The position numbers were made by a program, and so were the translations under genes. A stretch of DNA of 64,000 nt, taken from positions 186,001 through 250,000 of the forward strand of contig JAGNLV010000002.1 of assembly GCA_017999435.1 (NCBI GenBank), read 5' to 3'. Under the pieces are notes generated by a model. It was not told the DNA's origin and did no database searches. It saw only the letters and a list, made by a program, of their open reading frames with translations. Below, one piece after another: positions 14,851 to 22,159 of the stretch. Source of the stretch: Candidatus Zixiibacteriota bacterium (GTDB lineage: Bacteria > Zixibacteria > MSB-5A5 > GN15 > FEB-12). Numbering within the stretch: position 1 is the stretch's first letter; each line of letters begins with the position of its first letter.

Positions 14851-15018
14851 TCACTCCGCCCCGCCGGCCAGATCCGTCTTATCTTCAGCCCGGAGCGCTG
14901 CGGTCCGGCGGCGCTCCAACCAGAACCAGACCAGCCCCGCGGTCACCACCACCAGCACCGCGAGCCCGGCCACGTGATACCACCGGATCCGCTGTCTGAC
15001 CATTTCAAATGTACTCAC
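14851..15018 (-). CDS. Small single-pass membrane protein, 55 residues
   Basis: A GTG start at 15018 is preceded six bases earlier by a full GGAGG. The peptide has a basic start (VRQRIRWYH), one hydrophobic helix (AGLAVLVVVTAGLVWFW, about residues 17-33), a stop-transfer ERRR and a short charged tail. Orientation is probably N-in or N-out with one pass; function unknown. It is the first gene upstream of the SDR gene and may share its transcript. The strong ribosome site and helix argue against chance. Confidence 0.6.
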   Translation of the reverse strand: MSTFEMVRQRIRWYHVAGLAVLVVVTAGLVWFWLERRRTAALRAEDKTDLAGGAE

Positions 15019-15186
15019 TGCATACCTCCGTTCCTGGCGGTCCCGTTGAAATCATCGGCCTTCCCTTCCCACATCCAAATAACGCCGCCCCCGAAAAAAC
15101 GCAATCCCATTACGCGCACAAGCGGCGATATCCGCCCAGAGCTGAAGCGCCCGCTCTCCGGCGGTTCGTTCTTAAAGTGATCGGCC

Positions 15187-15224
15187 AAAAAAATACCACC
15201 CGTGCTCCCCTCAAGCACGGGTGG
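15187..15224 (-). terminator. Rho-independent terminator (minus strand)
   Basis: CCACCCGTGCT (15196-15206) pairs perfectly with AGCACGGGTGG (15214-15224), an 11-bp stem with a 7-base loop. On the minus strand it is followed by TA and then seven Ts (15193-15187). No protein gene is close upstream on this strand, so it seems to end a non-coding transcript. Confidence 0.8.
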
Positions 15225-15411
15225 CGATCCGCCAAAGAGAAAAGATAAGCGTAACAATTACTGCAACGCTCAGGGAGTTAAGATGACAGTTATTGGAACA
15301 GCAAGCTTCGTGCCGCATGGTGTCGCATTGCCTGACGACGCCGTAGTCGTTTGCATCACAGCATATTAGCTCTGTGCTACGGTTCCCTGTTCCACATTCG
15401 TTCGTGGAATT
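15187..15411 (-). ncRNA. Candidate structured non-coding RNA
   Basis: The gene-free stretch 15019-15626 is unusually AT-rich and holds two intrinsic terminators. Between them the sequence folds: TGGAACAG (15294-15301) pairs with CTGTTCCA (15387-15394), enclosing GTCG/CGAC (15322-15325, 15336-15339) and an 11-base strand at 15372-15382 that pairs with 15357-15361 and 15341-15346 around a 10-base bulge. A competing hairpin TTCCAC/GTGGAA (15390-15395, 15404-15409) excludes the closing stem. A TATGAT -10 box lies at 15424-15419 but its -35 is poor. I cannot match it to 6S, SRP, tmRNA or RNase P RNA. A 70-codon frame on this strand runs into the terminator stem and looks non-coding. Confidence 0.35.
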
Positions 15412-15438
15412 TCGTACGATCATACGAGTCCGGTCCCG

Positions 15439-15478
15439 AAAAAAAGCGGTAAGCGCCTGTCAATCAAACGCTTACCGC
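15439..15478 (-). terminator. Terminator of the TPR-sigma54 activator operon
   Basis: GCGGTAAGCG (15446-15455) pairs perfectly with CGCTTACCGC (15469-15478) around a 13-base loop. On the minus strand seven Ts follow (15445-15439). It lies about 150 bases beyond the stop of the activator gene at 15627. Confidence 0.8.
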
Positions 15479-15626
15479 AACCAAGGAGTAACTGTGTCTG
15501 TTCGTAAGCCGCTACGATTCCACCCGCCCGGTTCCGGTACCGATGCCTCCAAGCGCCATCTCACACGCTCGGTCGCGACGATCACACGGAGCGGGGCGAG
15601 GAAATCCGGCTCGTGTCGGTTTCAGC

Positions 15627-17870
15627 CTAGTTGAGCGCACCTCCTTCCAGGCTGATGCCGTAGCGCTTGAGTTTCGTGCGGACGGTGGCCTCGTGGATTC
15701 CGAGGATGCGCGCCGCCTCCGACTTGTTGCCGCCGGTGGCCAGCAGGGCCTCGATCAGCATCTGCCGCTCGAACCGCTCAACCTGCTCGAAGAGCGAGGA
15801 GCGTTGATCCCGACCGGGGTCGCCGAACACGGCATGGGCCAATTCGGAGAGATCTCCCTCGGCGGCCAGTTCCGCCATCACCTCGAGCCGTTTGACTTTG
15901 TTGTTCAGCTCGCGCACGTTGCCCGGCCAGGCATACTCGACAAAGCGGTGGATAACGTCGGCCGGCAGCGGGCTCTCCGCCAGGCGGCGGCAGTTTTGGA
16001 GGAAGTGCCGCAGCAGGAGCGGGATATCCTCTTTCCGGTCGCGCAGCGGGGGGAGGTGGAACGTAATGCCGCTGATGCGGTAGTAGAGATCGCGGCGGAA
16101 CAATCCGCGCTCCACCATCGCCTGGAGATCGCGGTTGGTCGCCACGACGAGCCGGATGTCGAGCGGCACCTCTTTCGTCGATCCGACCGGCACCACCCGG
16201 CGGCTTTCCAGAACGCCGAGCAGTTTGGCCTGGAGAGTCGGCGGCATGTCCCCGATCTCGTCGAGGTAGAGCACGCCGCCGTTGGCGGTCACGAAAAGTC
16301 CTTCTTTGTCGCGGTCGGCTCCGGTGAAAGCCCCCTTGGCGTATCCGAACAGCTCCGACTCCAGAAGGGTCTCGGGAATCGAGGCGCAATTGACCGCCAC
16401 AAAAGGACCATCGGGCCGGCAGATCGCGTGGAAGTACCGGGCCATGTGGTCCTTGCCGACACCCGTCTCGCCGGTCAGCAGGACGGGGAGATCGGACTTG
16501 GCGACGTAGCTCAGTTGCTGTTTGAACCGCTTGATCTGCTCGTTGGCGGTCAGGAATTCCACCTCGGAGGTCCTCGCGGCCGCGCCGGGGGCGTCGCCCG
16601 GCCGCAGGCGGTCCGTGCCGGCCAGCAGGCGGTCAATCTCCTCCAGACGCCGCTGCATCCCCCCGCGGCGGAAATACTCTTCGGCGCGGAACAGGCAGGT
16701 CAGGCGTTTGCGCGGGTCGAAAGCGGCCGACTGGCCGGCCGCCACCAGCGCCTCGGCCTTCTCAAACCGAACGCCCGACTGGTGGAGCGTGTCGAGCGCT
16801 TTCACGAACAGCTCGCGGGCTTCGGCGATGCGACCGCCGCGTTCGGCGAGGATGGCCTGCACTTTCAGCACGGCTCCCTGCTCGACCATCTCGCCGGTTT
16901 TGGCCAGAATCGCCAGCGCCCGGGCCGCATAGCGCGCGGCAACCCGGTCGTGGCCGACACGCAGCGAGGCCTCGGCCAGGTGGCGCAGCACGCGGCCGGT
17001 CAGGGTCGTCTCCCGACCGATAGCCTCGGCGGCCGCCAGCGCGCTCTCGAGCATCTCGGCCGCTTCCGCCGCCCGCTCGCTCCGGTAGTACAGCTCGCCC
17101 AGGTAGGTGCGGAGGATTACCTGATCGCGCGGGCTTTCGACCCGGCGCAAACCGGCCGCCGCTTTCTGGAACGTCGTCTCGGCCCCGGCAAAGTCCCCTT
17201 CCTGCATCTGCACGTAGCCGAGGGACAGCGCCGCCCGCGCCGCCTCGAGAGTCTGTCCCAGTTCCTCGGACAGGGTGAGGTTGATTTCGAGATGTTTCTT
17301 GGCCTCTGCGAATTCGCCGAGGAATGTCTGGATACGGCCGATGTTGCCCATCATGTACGCAAGTTTCTTGCGGTCGTCCAGGCGCTTGGCGAGGCCGATG
17401 GCCTCCATCAGCACCGTCAGCGAATTGCGATAGTCGTTTTGGCGGAAGTAGAGGCCGGCCAGCAGGTTCAGCGCCCTGCTCTGCCCTTCCGCACAATCGT
17501 TGCGCCGAAAGATTGATTCGGCGTCTCGGAATGCTTTCTCCGCTTGCTTCAGTTCGCCGCTGTCCCGAAGAACTTCGGCCACCGTGAGGAAAGTCTCCGC
17601 CAACTCGAGCGTGTCGCCGTGCTCGGAGTGGATGGCCTGCGCCATGCGGGCCAGGCGGAGCGCCGTGGGGTACGAAGCGAGCGCAAGGTGAGCCCGGGCC
17701 ACCAACCGGAGAATTCGTCCCGCGAGCGCGCTTCCCGCCGTCTCAAGCTGGCGGCGATTCGCCTCGTAGTACTTGACCGCGCCCGAAAAATCCCGCGCGG
17801 CGAGCAATTCCTCCAGGTAGTGAGCCGCTGCCGCAAGCAGTCCGTCGGCAGTGTCGGTAATCACTCTCAT
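15627..17870 (-). CDS. Sigma54-interacting transcriptional activator with TPR sensor
   Basis: A 747-residue enhancer-binding protein. Residues 1 to about 420 are helical tetratricopeptide-like repeats (for example ALNLLAGLYFRQNDYRNSL, YMMGNIGRIQTFLGEFAEA), in place of the usual receiver or GAF domain. The AAA+ domain has Walker A GETGVGKD (467-474), the sigma54-contact loop GAFTGA (near 512), Walker B VLYLDEIGDM and the arginine-finger region RRDLYYRI. The C-terminus is a Fis-type helix-turn-helix (GGNKSEAARILGIHEATVR). It activates RNA polymerase-sigma54 at an unknown target; TPR domains bind peptides or proteins. It lies 12 bases after a small secreted-protein gene and its own promoter is sigma70-like. 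Confidence 0.9.
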   Translation of the reverse strand: MRVITDTADGLLAAAAHYLEELLAARDFSGAVKYYEANRRQLETAGSALAGRILRLVARAHLALASYPTALRLARMAQAIHSEHGDTLELAETFLTVAEVLRDSGELKQAEKAFRDAESIFRRNDCAEGQSRALNLLAGLYFRQNDYRNSLTVLMEAIGLAKRLDDRKKLAYMMGNIGRIQTFLGEFAEAKKHLEINLTLSEELGQTLEAARAALSLGYVQMQEGDFAGAETTFQKAAAGLRRVESPRDQVILRTYLGELYYRSERAAEAAEMLESALAAAEAIGRETTLTGRVLRHLAEASLRVGHDRVAARYAARALAILAKTGEMVEQGAVLKVQAILAERGGRIAEARELFVKALDTLHQSGVRFEKAEALVAAGQSAAFDPRKRLTCLFRAEEYFRRGGMQRRLEEIDRLLAGTDRLRPGDAPGAAARTSEVEFLTANEQIKRFKQQLSYVAKSDLPVLLTGETGVGKDHMARYFHAICRPDGPFVAVNCASIPETLLESELFGYAKGAFTGADRDKEGLFVTANGGVLYLDEIGDMPPTLQAKLLGVLESRRVVPVGSTKEVPLDIRLVVATNRDLQAMVERGLFRRDLYYRISGITFHLPPLRDRKEDIPLLLRHFLQNCRRLAESPLPADVIHRFVEYAWPGNVRELNNKVKRLEVMAELAAEGDLSELAHAVFGDPGRDQRSSLFEQVERFERQMLIEALLATGGNKSEAARILGIHEATVRTKLKRYGISLEGGALN

Positions 17871-17882
17871 ACCTTCGTTCCC

Positions 17883-18257
17883 TCAGTTTCCTCGACCGTT
17901 GTTTGCCGGGGCCGTCGCACCCGGGTTGTTCTCTCCCACAATTGCGTTGCCGTCAGTCGACGGCTGCGGCAGTGTCACGATGGTGTGGCCGGTCAGCCGT
18001 TCGAACCAGAGCGGCATCACCAGCCGCCACAACAGGCTGGTCTCAATGCCGACAATTCCGGGCGCCACTCCCGACGAAGTGCCGGGCTGGGACAGGCGAG
18101 AATCAGGGAAATAGTTCTGCTCCCCGCCCCACGGATGGTCCTCGCTGGACGGCCGCGGATACGGGACAGCAATCGGGTTCCGGCGAGCACTGACACTGCT
18201 GACGGCGGTGGCCAACAACAGCACCAGGACAACCGAAACAGTGAGAAGACGTTTCAT
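17883..18257 (-). CDS. Small secreted protein, unknown function
   Basis: The 124-residue product has a signal peptide (KRLLTVSVVLVLLLATAVSS, cleavage near residue 24, VSA/RR) and a mature chain rich in Pro, Gly, Asn and Ser with no cysteine. A moderately hydrophobic patch SLLWRLVMPLWFERL sits near the middle. I recognise no family. The ATG follows AAGGAG and overlaps the stop of an upstream mini-ORF (ATGA), suggesting coupling. It shares a promoter with the TPR-sigma54 activator 12 bases downstream, so it may be the activator's signal, target or regulator. Confidence 0.7.
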   Translation of the reverse strand: MKRLLTVSVVLVLLLATAVSSVSARRNPIAVPYPRPSSEDHPWGGEQNYFPDSRLSQPGTSSGVAPGIVGIETSLLWRLVMPLWFERLTGHTIVTLPQPSTDGNAIVGENNPGATAPANNGRGN

Positions 18258-18340
18258 GACACACTCCTTGGTTTATAGTGACACAAGTTTTGCCAAAGAC
18301 ACAGGGCCGGCGGGCGAGAGAGGGGATTGTGCAGAGACAT
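18254..18340 (-). CDS. 28-residue leader peptide, translationally coupled
   Basis: Between the promoter at 18374-18402 and the secreted-protein gene, an ATG at 18340 follows GGAGG by seven bases. The 28-codon frame (starting MSLHNPLSRPP, ending PRSVS) stops at TGA 18256-18254, sharing ATGA with the next start. No run of one amino acid suggests classical attenuation, though it holds two Leu-Cys pairs, a Trp and a His-Tyr. It may set the translation level of the operon. Not similar to anything I know. Confidence 0.45.
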   Translation of the reverse strand: MSLHNPLSRPPALCLWQNLCHYKPRSVS

Positions 18341-18970: not shown

Positions 18971-20047
18971 CTATTTTTTGGCCTCCGCGAGCGCCTTCTT
19001 CAGGGCGTCGATGATCTTCACCGGCGTCGGGTCGACCTCGTTGAGAATCGCGAGGTAATAGGAGACGAAGTCGCCGAACTGGACCAGCGAGAGCATCCGC
19101 TCGAGCTCGGTCTCCCCGCGCGAGTGAACGTCGATCGCCTCCACCCCGCGCGAGCGGATCAGTTCGCCGACGATGTTCATGCGCTGGCGCACCTGCGGGT
19201 GGTCGCCAAGGTCGCGCAGGATCACGACGGCCAGGTGCGAGGCGAGTTCCTCGATCGACGGCGACCAGCCGACCAGCTCGTTGTGATTGAATTCCGGGAA
19301 CTGGTTGGCGAAGGCGAGGGTCTTGGCGTTCTCGCACAACTGAGCTTTCCAGCGCCGCCCGACCGCATCGGTCAGGGTCGGTCCGCTATAGACGATCACG
19401 ATCTTCTTGTGCAGTTTCTGGGCGAGGTTCTTGGCCGGGTTGATGGTCGTCGAATTGTCTTCGATATACTTCTCCCGGTGCTTCTGCAGCTGCGGGATGA
19501 CCTTCTCGAGCTCCTTGGAGAACCCCTTGGCGTGGCCGACCTGTTCGAGAAACATCATGGTCATCACGAAGAGGTAGCCGAGGGCGGCGCGGGGCTGGAG
19601 ACCGCCGGGCAGTTTGGCCAGCGGGATGTCGTTGAGCTGGGCCACTTCCTCAAGCAGACCGCCGGTGGCGATCGCGGCGAGCATGGCCTTGCGGTTGAGC
19701 GCGTCGTCCACCGCCGCGAGCGTCTCCTCGGTGTTGCCGCTGTAGGAGGCGGCGACCACCAGGGTCTCGTCGTCGACATACTCGGGCAGCGCGTAGGAGC
19801 GGCAGATGTCGACCGGCACGAGCAGTTTGGTGCGGAGGTAGCTGCGCATGAGGTCGCCGGCGATTCCGGACCCGCCCATGCCCACGGTAACGATATTCTT
19901 GATGCCCGGGAACGCGCTCGCATCGAACTTCCAGAGTTTGCCGAGTTTCACCGCATCCGCCAACTGCTCGGGAAAATCGAAGATTCGGTTGTACATGTTT
20001 TCCGGATCGTGGGCGCGGATCTTCTCAATGTCGTCGAGTATATTCAA
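18971..20047 (-). CDS. Bifunctional phosphoglucose/phosphomannose isomerase
   Basis: A 358-residue member of the compact PGI/PMI family, which interconverts glucose-6-P, fructose-6-P and mannose-6-P. The first SIS domain has VGMGGSGIAGDLMRSYL and AASYSGNTEETLA; the second has IVIVYSGPTLTDAVGRRWK, ENAKTLAF and the base-bearing FPEFNHNELVGW. Length fits the family, shorter than classical PGI. It is followed by a strong terminator and lies two bases after ptsI. The mannose-6-P branch would feed the nucleotidyltransferase-phosphomannomutase fusion at 37.8 kb. Confidence 0.92.
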   Translation of the reverse strand: MNILDDIEKIRAHDPENMYNRIFDFPEQLADAVKLGKLWKFDASAFPGIKNIVTVGMGGSGIAGDLMRSYLRTKLLVPVDICRSYALPEYVDDETLVVAASYSGNTEETLAAVDDALNRKAMLAAIATGGLLEEVAQLNDIPLAKLPGGLQPRAALGYLFVMTMMFLEQVGHAKGFSKELEKVIPQLQKHREKYIEDNSTTINPAKNLAQKLHKKIVIVYSGPTLTDAVGRRWKAQLCENAKTLAFANQFPEFNHNELVGWSPSIEELASHLAVVILRDLGDHPQVRQRMNIVGELIRSRGVEAIDVHSRGETELERMLSLVQFGDFVSYYLAILNEVDPTPVKIIDALKKALAEAKK

Positions 20048-20049
20048 AA

Positions 20050-21816
20050 TCAGCTGTCCTCTCTCATTCTGGGGTCCACGTGTTCCAGGGTCTCTCTATA
20101 GTCACGCAGGCGGTCCACCACCGCCTGCAGCGTGCCGCCGGCGAGCACCGGCCCGACCAGGTCCCGCGCCCGGGTGGAGTTGATTTTGCGGATTAAACGG
20201 CAGACCTCGACCAGGCGCGCCGGCGCCATCGACAGCACGTCCACGCCCATACCGATCAGCAGGGGCAGGGCCAGCCGCTGGCCGGCCAGCTCGCCGCACA
20301 CGGTCACCGGCACGCCGTTGGCCCGGCAGGTCTTGACCGTATGCCAGACCAGGTTCAGCACGGCCGGGTGCAGGGCGTTGTACAGGTGCGCCACGTGGCT
20401 GTTCATCCGGTCCGCGGCCAGCGTATACTGCGTCAGATCGTTCGTCCCGATCGACACGAAGTCCACACGCCGACTCAACGTGTCGGCCGTGAGGGCGGCC
20501 GATGGGACTTCGATCATGATCCCCAGGGGAACGTCTTCGCCAAAGGGGATAGCTTCCCGCCGAAGTTTCTGCTTCTCCTGCGAAATGATCTTCCGGGCCC
20601 GCTCAATTTCCTCCAGCTCGGTGACCATCGGCAGCAGGATCCGCAGATTGCCGTGGGCGGACGCGCGGAGGATCGCCCGGATCTGGGTGCGGAATTCTTC
20701 CCGCATCGCCAGCATAGTGCGGATTCCCCGCAGTCCCAAGGCGGGGTTGTCCTCGACCGGGAAGCCGCCGCCGTTGAACACCTTGTCGCCCCCGAGGTCG
20801 AAAGTCCGCAGCACCACCGGCGTCGGGCCGAAAGTCCGGGCGATCCGCCGGTAGTAATCGTACTGGGCCTCCTCCGAGGGAAACGCCCCGTTCGCGAGGT
20901 ACAAGAACTCGGTGCGGTAGAGACCGACCTGGACGCGCTGGTGGGCGAGGATTTCATCGGCCGGGCCGGGCAGCGTCAGGTTGGCCCCGATCGCCACCTC
21001 AACGCCATCGGCCGTGACCGGCGGGATGCGGCCGAGCTTCTTGATGCGGCTGAGCACGGTCGGCCCGAGCCGTCGCCGGCGCCGCTGGTAATCTTCCCAA
21101 GTCGCCTGGCTGGGGTTGACGATGACCCGGCCGGACACGGCATCGGCGATAATCCGGGTGTTGTTGGGGATTTTCTGCCATGCCTCCTCGGCCAGCACGA
21201 CCGGCAGCAAAAGAGCGCGGGCGATGAGCGCCATGTGAGAATCGGCGCCCCCTTCGCTGATGACGAAGCCGGTGGCTTTGCGCTCCCGGTACGAGACCAC
21301 GTCGTTGGGGGAAAACGATTTCCCCACCATGATGGTGTTGGGGGCGAACCGCTTCTGCTGGGGGATCCGCCCCGATAGCCGGGCCACCACCCGGGCCGCA
21401 ACCGCCTCGATATCGAGCGCTACCTGCCGCATGTAACGGTCGGGGGAGTTTTGCAGCGGGTCGACCGTCTCCTGCACCAGCTTCTGGTAGACATAGGCGG
21501 CGCCGAGCCGCTGCTCCTCGATGGCGGCCCGCACCCGCTTGAGGAACTCGGTGTCGCTGGCGATCATGACCTGAGCTTCGAATATCTTCGCCACCGGACC
21601 GCCAATCTTGCGGATGGCCGCCTGGTGGACCTCGCGAAGCTCGTCGAGGGTCTCGTCGACCGCCTTCTGCAGGGCGTCGATCTCCCGGGGCACCCGGGAC
21701 GCCGGGATCGGCATTTCCGATACCTGCGCCTCGCCCGGCAGCATCACCCGGGCGGTTCCGAGAACAATCCCGCTGGAGATCGGCACCCCGTCTATGGTGT
21801 ATTCCTTGCCATCCAT
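20050..21816 (-). CDS. ptsI: Phosphoenolpyruvate-protein phosphotransferase (Enzyme I)
   Basis: Enzyme I takes phosphate from PEP onto a histidine and passes it to HPr. The 588-residue protein has the HPr-binding N-terminal region, the phospho-His loop GGADSHMALIARAL, and the PEP-binding barrel with TFDLGGDKV, GTNDLTQYTLAADR and the active-site Cys in VTVCGELAGQ. I chose ATG 21816, ten bases after AAAGGGG; ATGs at 21825 and 21846 are in frame. No sugar-specific EII genes are near, so the system here may be regulatory. Confidence 0.95.
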   Translation of the reverse strand: MDGKEYTIDGVPISSGIVLGTARVMLPGEAQVSEMPIPASRVPREIDALQKAVDETLDELREVHQAAIRKIGGPVAKIFEAQVMIASDTEFLKRVRAAIEEQRLGAAYVYQKLVQETVDPLQNSPDRYMRQVALDIEAVAARVVARLSGRIPQQKRFAPNTIMVGKSFSPNDVVSYRERKATGFVISEGGADSHMALIARALLLPVVLAEEAWQKIPNNTRIIADAVSGRVIVNPSQATWEDYQRRRRRLGPTVLSRIKKLGRIPPVTADGVEVAIGANLTLPGPADEILAHQRVQVGLYRTEFLYLANGAFPSEEAQYDYYRRIARTFGPTPVVLRTFDLGGDKVFNGGGFPVEDNPALGLRGIRTMLAMREEFRTQIRAILRASAHGNLRILLPMVTELEEIERARKIISQEKQKLRREAIPFGEDVPLGIMIEVPSAALTADTLSRRVDFVSIGTNDLTQYTLAADRMNSHVAHLYNALHPAVLNLVWHTVKTCRANGVPVTVCGELAGQRLALPLLIGMGVDVLSMAPARLVEVCRLIRKINSTRARDLVGPVLAGGTLQAVVDRLRDYRETLEHVDPRMREDS

Positions 21817-21886
21817 GCCGATCATACCCCTTTCCGGGGTAACCATACATTATAGGAAGCCCCGCAGACTAAAGGCAAGCGGAATA

Positions 21887-22155
21887 TCAGTCGGGCCGTT
21901 CCCCGAACCCCCCCTCGATCACGCGGAGGACTGCCTGGAGGGCCTCCTGCTCGTCGGGTCCGTTCACCTCGATGAGCAGTTGTGAGCCGCGCTCGGCCGC
22001 CAGCATCATTACCCCCATGATCGATTTCCCGTTCACCCGCAAACCGTCTTTGGTGACCCAGACCTCGGACTCGAAGCGCGATGCGGTGGTGACCAGCATG
22101 GCCGAGGGACGGGCGTGGAGACCCAGTTTGTTGACGATCGTCGCGGTGGCCGTGA

Positions 22156-22159
<4 letters not shown>
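21887..22159 (-). CDS. ptsH: Phosphocarrier protein HPr
   Basis: The 90-residue protein carries the phospho-His of HPr in NKLGLHARPSA (His at 16) and the regulatory Ser region GKSIMGVMMLAAERG, which in Gram-positive and many other bacteria is phosphorylated by HPr kinase. The end (IEGGFGERPD) is a typical glycine-rich tail. Its ATG shares four bases (ATGA) with the dprA stop, and ptsI follows 70 bases on. Confidence 0.95.

Follow-up and report, generated by a model that had tools for sequence, protein, structure and literature searches.

A conserved candidate sigma54-dependent small RNA with a predicted anti-sigma target in Candidatus Zixiibacteriota

RESULTS AND DISCUSSION

Organization of the locus

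On the minus strand of the window, by which we mean the whole 64,000-nucleotide stretch of DNA that was analysed, a gene at 15627–17870 encodes a protein of 747 aa in which Pfam recognizes TPR repeats, a sigma54-interaction AAA+ domain and a Fis-type HTH, and which has orthologues in relatives. Upstream of this activator gene is gene X (17883–18257, minus strand), whose 124-aa product begins like a signal peptide, has a DDHPWGGE-type motif and matched nothing above cut-off in Pfam or NCBIfam; it occupies the same position in nearly every relative, family f4 included. Just upstream of these two genes, the region 18971–22159 (minus strand) carries bact-PGI_C isomerase-like, PTS enzyme I-like and HPr-like genes. 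Downstream of the activator gene, terminator 1 (15446–15478, minus strand; 14 bp stem) marks the predicted end of the activator mRNA and is conserved with the activator in relatives, and further left lies a second intrinsic terminator (15195–15225, minus strand), with a 13 bp stem followed by a T run.

Both terminators are near-perfect and have T runs, as a first-pass annotation of this interval had noted, and the sequence is indeed AT-rich (GC about 0.48–0.55 vs. 0.6–0.75 around it). The same annotation had proposed that a new minus-strand non-coding RNA ends near 15187, which agrees with the predicted sRNA that we find conserved in relatives. It was also right that the left terminator has no protein gene ahead of it. 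A 70-aa minus-strand open reading frame (ORF) at 15211–15423 has no Pfam match and was rejected as a gene: it starts upstream of the promoter described below, in non-conserved sequence.

Extent and structure of the predicted sRNA

The predicted sRNA covers 15187–15290 on the minus strand, about 103 nt. Its start is placed near 15290, 12 nt past the −12 box of a predicted sigma54 promoter, by the usual geometry of such promoters, and its end is the T run at 15187 that follows the left terminator. This stretch folds with a z of −6.06, and 0 of 200 shuffles were as good. The length of about 200 nt expected earlier has to be given up, the nested domain that it included being upstream of the predicted start. 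Rfam 15 gave 0 matches in the window at the gathering threshold, and with E up to 10 nothing credible appeared in 15000–15700 (best sub-threshold score, 18.7 bits vs. 35 needed), in keeping with the earlier remark that no RNA class could be recognized; searches for tRNA and tmRNA returned none.

From its 5′ end, the sRNA would consist of a single-stranded pairing region or seed (UGUCAUCUUAACUCCC, 15273–15288), a hairpin P1 (15246–15272), a pyrimidine linker (CUUUUCUCUUUGG, 15232–15244) that is conserved in the alignment and could pair with the terminator loop, and the left terminator, all on the minus strand. P1 is highly variable in sequence; it forms a hairpin in most members of family f1 and a weak one in family f2, and RNAalifold on a MAFFT alignment returned no consensus pairs for it and recovered the terminator. 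In the latter, the loop GAGGGG (15212–15207) is invariant and the stem changes on both sides in 9 of its 13 pairs among 47 aligned members, with 64 compensatory cells vs. 20 (SD 4.4) when shuffled and 1–14 when slid. In one relative (L025, G005), the stretch ACTCCCAAAA that follows the seed is tandemly duplicated (ACTCCCAAAATTACTCCCAAAA). A 28-aa plus-strand ORF inside the sRNA, with a Shine–Dalgarno-like start, owes its gene-like look only to the seed, which is complementary to a start site; judged by eye, its frame is not kept in relatives, and it was discarded.

The nested fold that the first-pass annotation drew to the right of this stretch fared less well. Taken without the left terminator, it reaches a z of −0.74, with 52 of 200 shuffles as good (the −3.1 obtained with the left terminator included is due to the terminator itself), and it sits in an unconserved promoter spacer. 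Its closing stem, TGGAACAG/CTGTTCCA (15294–15301/15387–15394), exists as an 8-base repeat, but in 1 of 25 loci, that of the window's own genome alone, and one of its arms overlaps the −12 promoter element; the suggested check by covariance model finds the terminator stem covarying and the closing stem absent in relatives. The GTCG/CGAC hairpin is present, as ACGAC/GTCGT. So is the hairpin at 15390–15409 (TTCCAC/GTGGAA), but not the two-state switch that was built on it, since the fold is at chance level and lies upstream of the predicted start. The annotation had overlooked three features that together explain the predicted RNA: its 5′ pairing region, its sigma54 promoter and the activator sites.

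Distribution and conservation

When 60 related genomes were searched with 15187–15478, the matches fell into two blocks, query 1–68 and about 163–292, and not in the middle, and both blocks directly follow the gene that is orthologous to the sigma54 activator gene in the window. Along the minus strand, the activator gene is followed by a palindrome, the conserved ACTCCTTGGT, terminator 1, another palindrome and a variable spacer of ~100 bp, and then by GGCAY-N5-TTGC, TGTCATTTTTACTCC, a variable hairpin, CTTTTCTCTTTGG and a terminator with a GAGGGG loop. The conserved parts are thus the right terminator with its two flanking palindromes and ~130 bp holding the promoter and the sRNA. Mean identity is 62% over the promoter and sRNA, 30% over the spacer and 21% in a shuffled control.

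A covariance model (R1) found the sRNA in 55 of 132 Zixiibacteriota genomes, single-copy in all and mostly beside the orthologous activator. The matches comprise most of family f1, six in f2, four in f3 and a weak one in f4. The six in f2 and three of the four in f3 adjoin the activator; the f4 match and the f1 matches of two genomes (G027 and G035) are away from it. Some activator-bearing genomes, namely most of f4 and some incomplete f1 assemblies, had no detectable sRNA. A possible divergent f4 member, with GGCAT-N5-TTGC and GGTCATTTTTG, was seen away from the activator orthologue (L250, G042:C18:10269–10392). In a pattern scan, the named records were Candidatus Zixiibacteriota or GN15. A record titled Calditrichaeota (QQUK01000101.1, L066) also carries the sRNA, and the position of the match fits genome G084; the title is probably mistaken. 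Searches for phage and plasmid sequences yielded weak, chance-like matches only. Hfq (PF17209), which the host of an Hfq-dependent trans-acting sRNA should encode, was detected in 0 of 41 Zixiibacteriota genomes and in 5 of 14 controls.

Promoter and activator sites

The predicted −24/−12 promoter, GGCAC-GAAGC-TTGC, is located at 15301–15314 (minus strand). Across 26 aligned sequences, GGCA and the TG of the −12 box are invariant and the spacing is fixed, the element being conserved as GGCAY-N5-TTGC at a constant distance before the sRNA. RpoN is encoded in the genome, a simple scan for sigma70 promoters gave none, and the sRNA is predicted to depend on sigma54.

Two palindromes lie upstream of the promoter as predicted activator sites (UAS), both on the minus strand: the near UAS, CTCGTATGATCGTACGAA (15411–15428), of the form TTCGTA-N6-TACGAA, and the far UAS, ATCGTAGCGGCTTACGAA (15501–15518), 90 bp from it. 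Allowing at most one mismatch, this palindrome occurs at four sites in the 3.5 Mb genome, two of them at the sRNA locus; the remaining two (L156 and L159) are unpaired and within ORFs, and were set aside. The near UAS is present in 45 of 47 loci, where it precedes the −24 box by 104–129 bp (median, 116), and the sites are 86–93 bp apart in the 42 loci that have both. Paired palindromes in this geometry are what an enhancer-binding protein would be expected to use, and the TPR-AAA+-Fis protein encoded next to them is the obvious candidate; from their proximity and uniqueness, we infer that the palindromes are its binding sites. In the spacer (15315–15410), several relatives have TTGTYA/TAACA-like half palindromes between the near UAS and the promoter, possibly for DNA bending or as the site of a second regulator.

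Pairing with an anti-sigma start site

Reverse-complemented, the conserved 5′ end of the sRNA, UGUCAUUUUUACUCC, reads GGAGUAAAAAUGACA: a Shine–Dalgarno and, after a spacer, a start codon followed by ACA. When 61 genomes were pattern-searched for GGAGUAAAAAUGACA, the sites had one gene in common, in twelve genomes, and this gene, which encodes a zf-HC2 anti-sigma (PF13490), begins within the end of an ECF sigma gene or immediately next to it. The other seed-complementary sites in relatives (e.g., L168, L181, and L183) do not recur from one genome to the next and were put down to chance, target specificity being assessed by pattern searches. In most of the twelve genomes the anti-sigma gene is followed by a lipoprotein-like gene and another gene, which we take to be phosphopentomutase-like. 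A profile built from ten of the anti-sigma proteins revealed widespread orthologues, including one in the window's own genome (C4:2337–2891) that the seed search had missed. This orthologue matches PF13490 with 42.4 bits (cut-off, 22.2), and the gene before it matches Sigma70_r2 and r4_2 above cut-off; the target thus falls within the zf-HC2 family, and its role as an anti-sigma is predicted from there.

The own-genome target was found after the pairing had been predicted. Its start site, GGGAGUUGAGAUGAC (G000:C4:2327–2341), pairs with the divergent seed of the window's own sRNA, GUCAUCUUAACUCCC, at 15 of 15 positions, one of them a wobble, and it is the best complement of that seed genome-wide after the sRNA gene itself; in many genomes the own target is not ranked first.

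Over 42 genomes, sRNAs combined with their own targets give a mean duplex energy of −23.0 kcal/mol vs. −19.0 (SD 0.43) when the combinations are permuted at random across genomes, with no correction for shared ancestry, and 0 of 20,000 permutations did as well; for family f1 alone (36 genomes), the values are −23.7 vs. −20.1 (SD 0.44; 0 of 20,000). In a set of 19 distinct pairs without gaps, two-sided changes occur at six positions, with 15 compensatory cells vs. 3.6 (SD 1.6) when shuffled and 1–3 when slid. Compensation is clear in G012 (UUG/CAA), G015 (UUC/GAA), G013 (UAU/AUA), and G019, G036 and G079 (UGC/GCA), and is likewise found in the window's own genome (G000); in G035 and G016 the spacer length is altered in both sRNA and target, and in G053 the duplex runs uninterrupted for 21 bp. 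Pair 8 changes from UA to CG, AU and GC, which argues for several independent events. Pairing is weak in G001 (−7.8), G043 (−10.3), G037 (−12.2) and G009 (−13.9), which are exceptions, through divergence or a wrongly chosen orthologue. A conserved seed with compensatory change is the signature of an sRNA that base-pairs at start sites, and the RNA described here bears it in the alignments.

Proposed mechanism and alternatives

The conservation of the sRNA, the promoter, the geometry of the sites, the neighbourhood and the co-evolution of seed and target all come out of the comparison between genomes, and they suggest the following course of events. The TPR-AAA+-Fis activator would bind the two palindromes 86–93 bp apart and switch on RNA polymerase-sigma54 at the GGCAY-N5-TTGC promoter, giving the sRNA of ~103 nt, whose first ~16–20 bases would form a duplex over the Shine–Dalgarno and start codon of the zf-HC2 anti-sigma gene. 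The duplex would stop translation of the anti-sigma and so free the ECF sigma. The transcription and the consequence of pairing are predicted from sequence, and a repressive sign is favoured because of the position of the duplex and the precedents of FlmE and OmrA/B on flgM. We hold it likely that the RNA is a sigma54-dependent sRNA with its own adjacent enhancer-binding protein that silences an anti-sigma to release an ECF sigma; by blocking production of this brake, it would probably turn on a stress programme.

Pairing at the sigma/anti-sigma junction might also have an opposite or a joint outcome, in which decay of the operon mRNA lowers sigma too or translation of the anti-sigma is stimulated, as the site overlaps or abuts both the sigma stop codon and the anti-sigma start and both could be affected. 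We consider this unlikely: a duplex of 15–21 bp over the Shine–Dalgarno and start codon normally blocks initiation, and the studied sRNAs that pair with anti-sigma mRNAs are repressors (PMC11187230 and PMC12692685).

Several relatives (L020, L015, L008, and L021), and not the window's own genome, have a gene for a BMC-domain protein (PF00936) next to the element in the same direction, which could make the element a regulatory leader (a riboswitch or attenuator) at the 5′ side of a downstream gene that often encodes a BMC shell protein. However, the downstream gene varies while the sRNA stays with the activator, being a short-chain dehydrogenase region in the window's own genome, symporter-like in G034 and G011 and short membrane-protein-like ORFs in G029, G024 and G002; moreover, the element closes with a strong covarying terminator and co-evolves with a distant anti-sigma start site, all of which leaves a leader very improbable. 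Slightly less probable again is an RNA that serves mainly as a protein decoy, as a CsrA sponge or in the manner of 6S, with incidental pairing. The invariant GAGGGG loop and the conserved pyrimidine linker would suit such a decoy, but GGA is not kept (GAGGGGT in G010, G011, and G023) and stands in a single loop, which does not make a CsrA sponge, no Rfam match appeared in the interval even at permissive thresholds, and incidental pairing would not account for the covariation of seed and target. Least credible of all is a structured two-state RNA of ~200 nt at 15187–15409, for although its inverted repeats exist in the sequence, it folds like its shuffles, has no such stem in relatives and straddles the sigma54 promoter.

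A second predicted pairing at the same locus

Beside the sRNA that we take to silence the anti-sigma, the activator mRNA has a conserved 3′UTR element, ACUCCUUGGUU (15479–15489, minus strand), before terminator 1, which is complementary to the ribosome-binding site of gene X, AACCAAGGAGU (18263–18273, minus strand). In 25 genomes, with element positions hand-picked by their place before the hairpin, own combinations average −21.9 vs. −18.8 (SD 0.52) for permuted ones, and 0 of 20,000 permutations did as well; covariation is seen, for example, in G009 (GAU/AUC), G030 (UUUGU/ACAAA), G017 and G028. A 3′UTR that covaries in the alignments with a start site of its own operon looks like autoregulation of the OppZ/CarZ type. 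For the wider proposal that the locus combines two riboregulators in a lineage with no Hfq detected, a cascade from sigma54 through the sRNA to the ECF sigma and a 3′UTR feedback on the gene X start site, we see the case for and against as evenly balanced.

Comparison with known systems

Both sigma54-dependent sRNAs beside or under named activators and sRNAs that silence anti-sigma genes are already known. A primary sRNA with an adjacent activator, directed against a zf-HC2 anti-sigma in a lineage with no Hfq detected, was not found in the literature searched, and the predicted sRNA is therefore a new RNA family, previously undescribed. For this sRNA of an uncultured phylum, genome sequences alone sufficed to propose a regulator, a promoter and a target, and the compensatory changes that seed and target show in nature take the place of a mutational test. 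In the proposed circuit, an RNA would connect two alternative sigma systems in genomes with no Hfq detected, and the data suggest that long duplexes of 15–21 bp may replace the help of a chaperone.

In the adjacency of its gene to that of its sigma54 enhancer-binding protein and in its sigma54 promoter, the sRNA is like CrcZ with CbrB in Pseudomonadaceae (PMC6292655), but CrcZ relieves Hfq-Crc repression with no mRNA pairing, whereas here base pairing is predicted and no Hfq was found. Qrr1 of Vibrio, with LuxO/SypG (PMC10162802), is likewise sigma54-dependent, has enhancer-binding proteins at upstream sites and acts post-transcriptionally, but its targets are those of quorum sensing, and the sRNA described here has no Rfam family. 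The second pairing resembles OppZ/CarZ (PMC7398697) in that an mRNA 3′ end is complementary to a start site within its own upstream part; OppZ and CarZ are sRNAs established by experiment, whereas the pairing here is predicted from alignments.

As for the target, in Escherichia coli OmrA/OmrB repress flgM through a 5′ seed that blocks translation of an anti-sigma mRNA (PMC12692685, citing Romilly 2020), as predicted here, but they are Hfq-dependent, have many targets and no adjacent sigma54 activator, and FlgM is unrelated to zf-HC2. The closest parallel is CJnc230 (FlmE) of Campylobacter jejuni, an RpoN-dependent RNA of about 98 nt that represses flgM (PMC11187230). Like FlmE, the sRNA would act on the ribosome-binding site of an anti-sigma mRNA and free a sigma; unlike FlmE, which is processed from the flgE mRNA, it would be made as a primary sRNA from a predicted promoter of its own, with an activator gene next to it, and its target is not FlgM, the anti-sigma28, but a zf-HC2 protein (PF13490) encoded behind an ECF sigma. 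The wiring is thus like that of RpoN-dependent FlmE and anti-sigma28 in Campylobacter, built from unrelated parts, which hints that the silencing of anti-sigma genes by sRNAs arose more than once.
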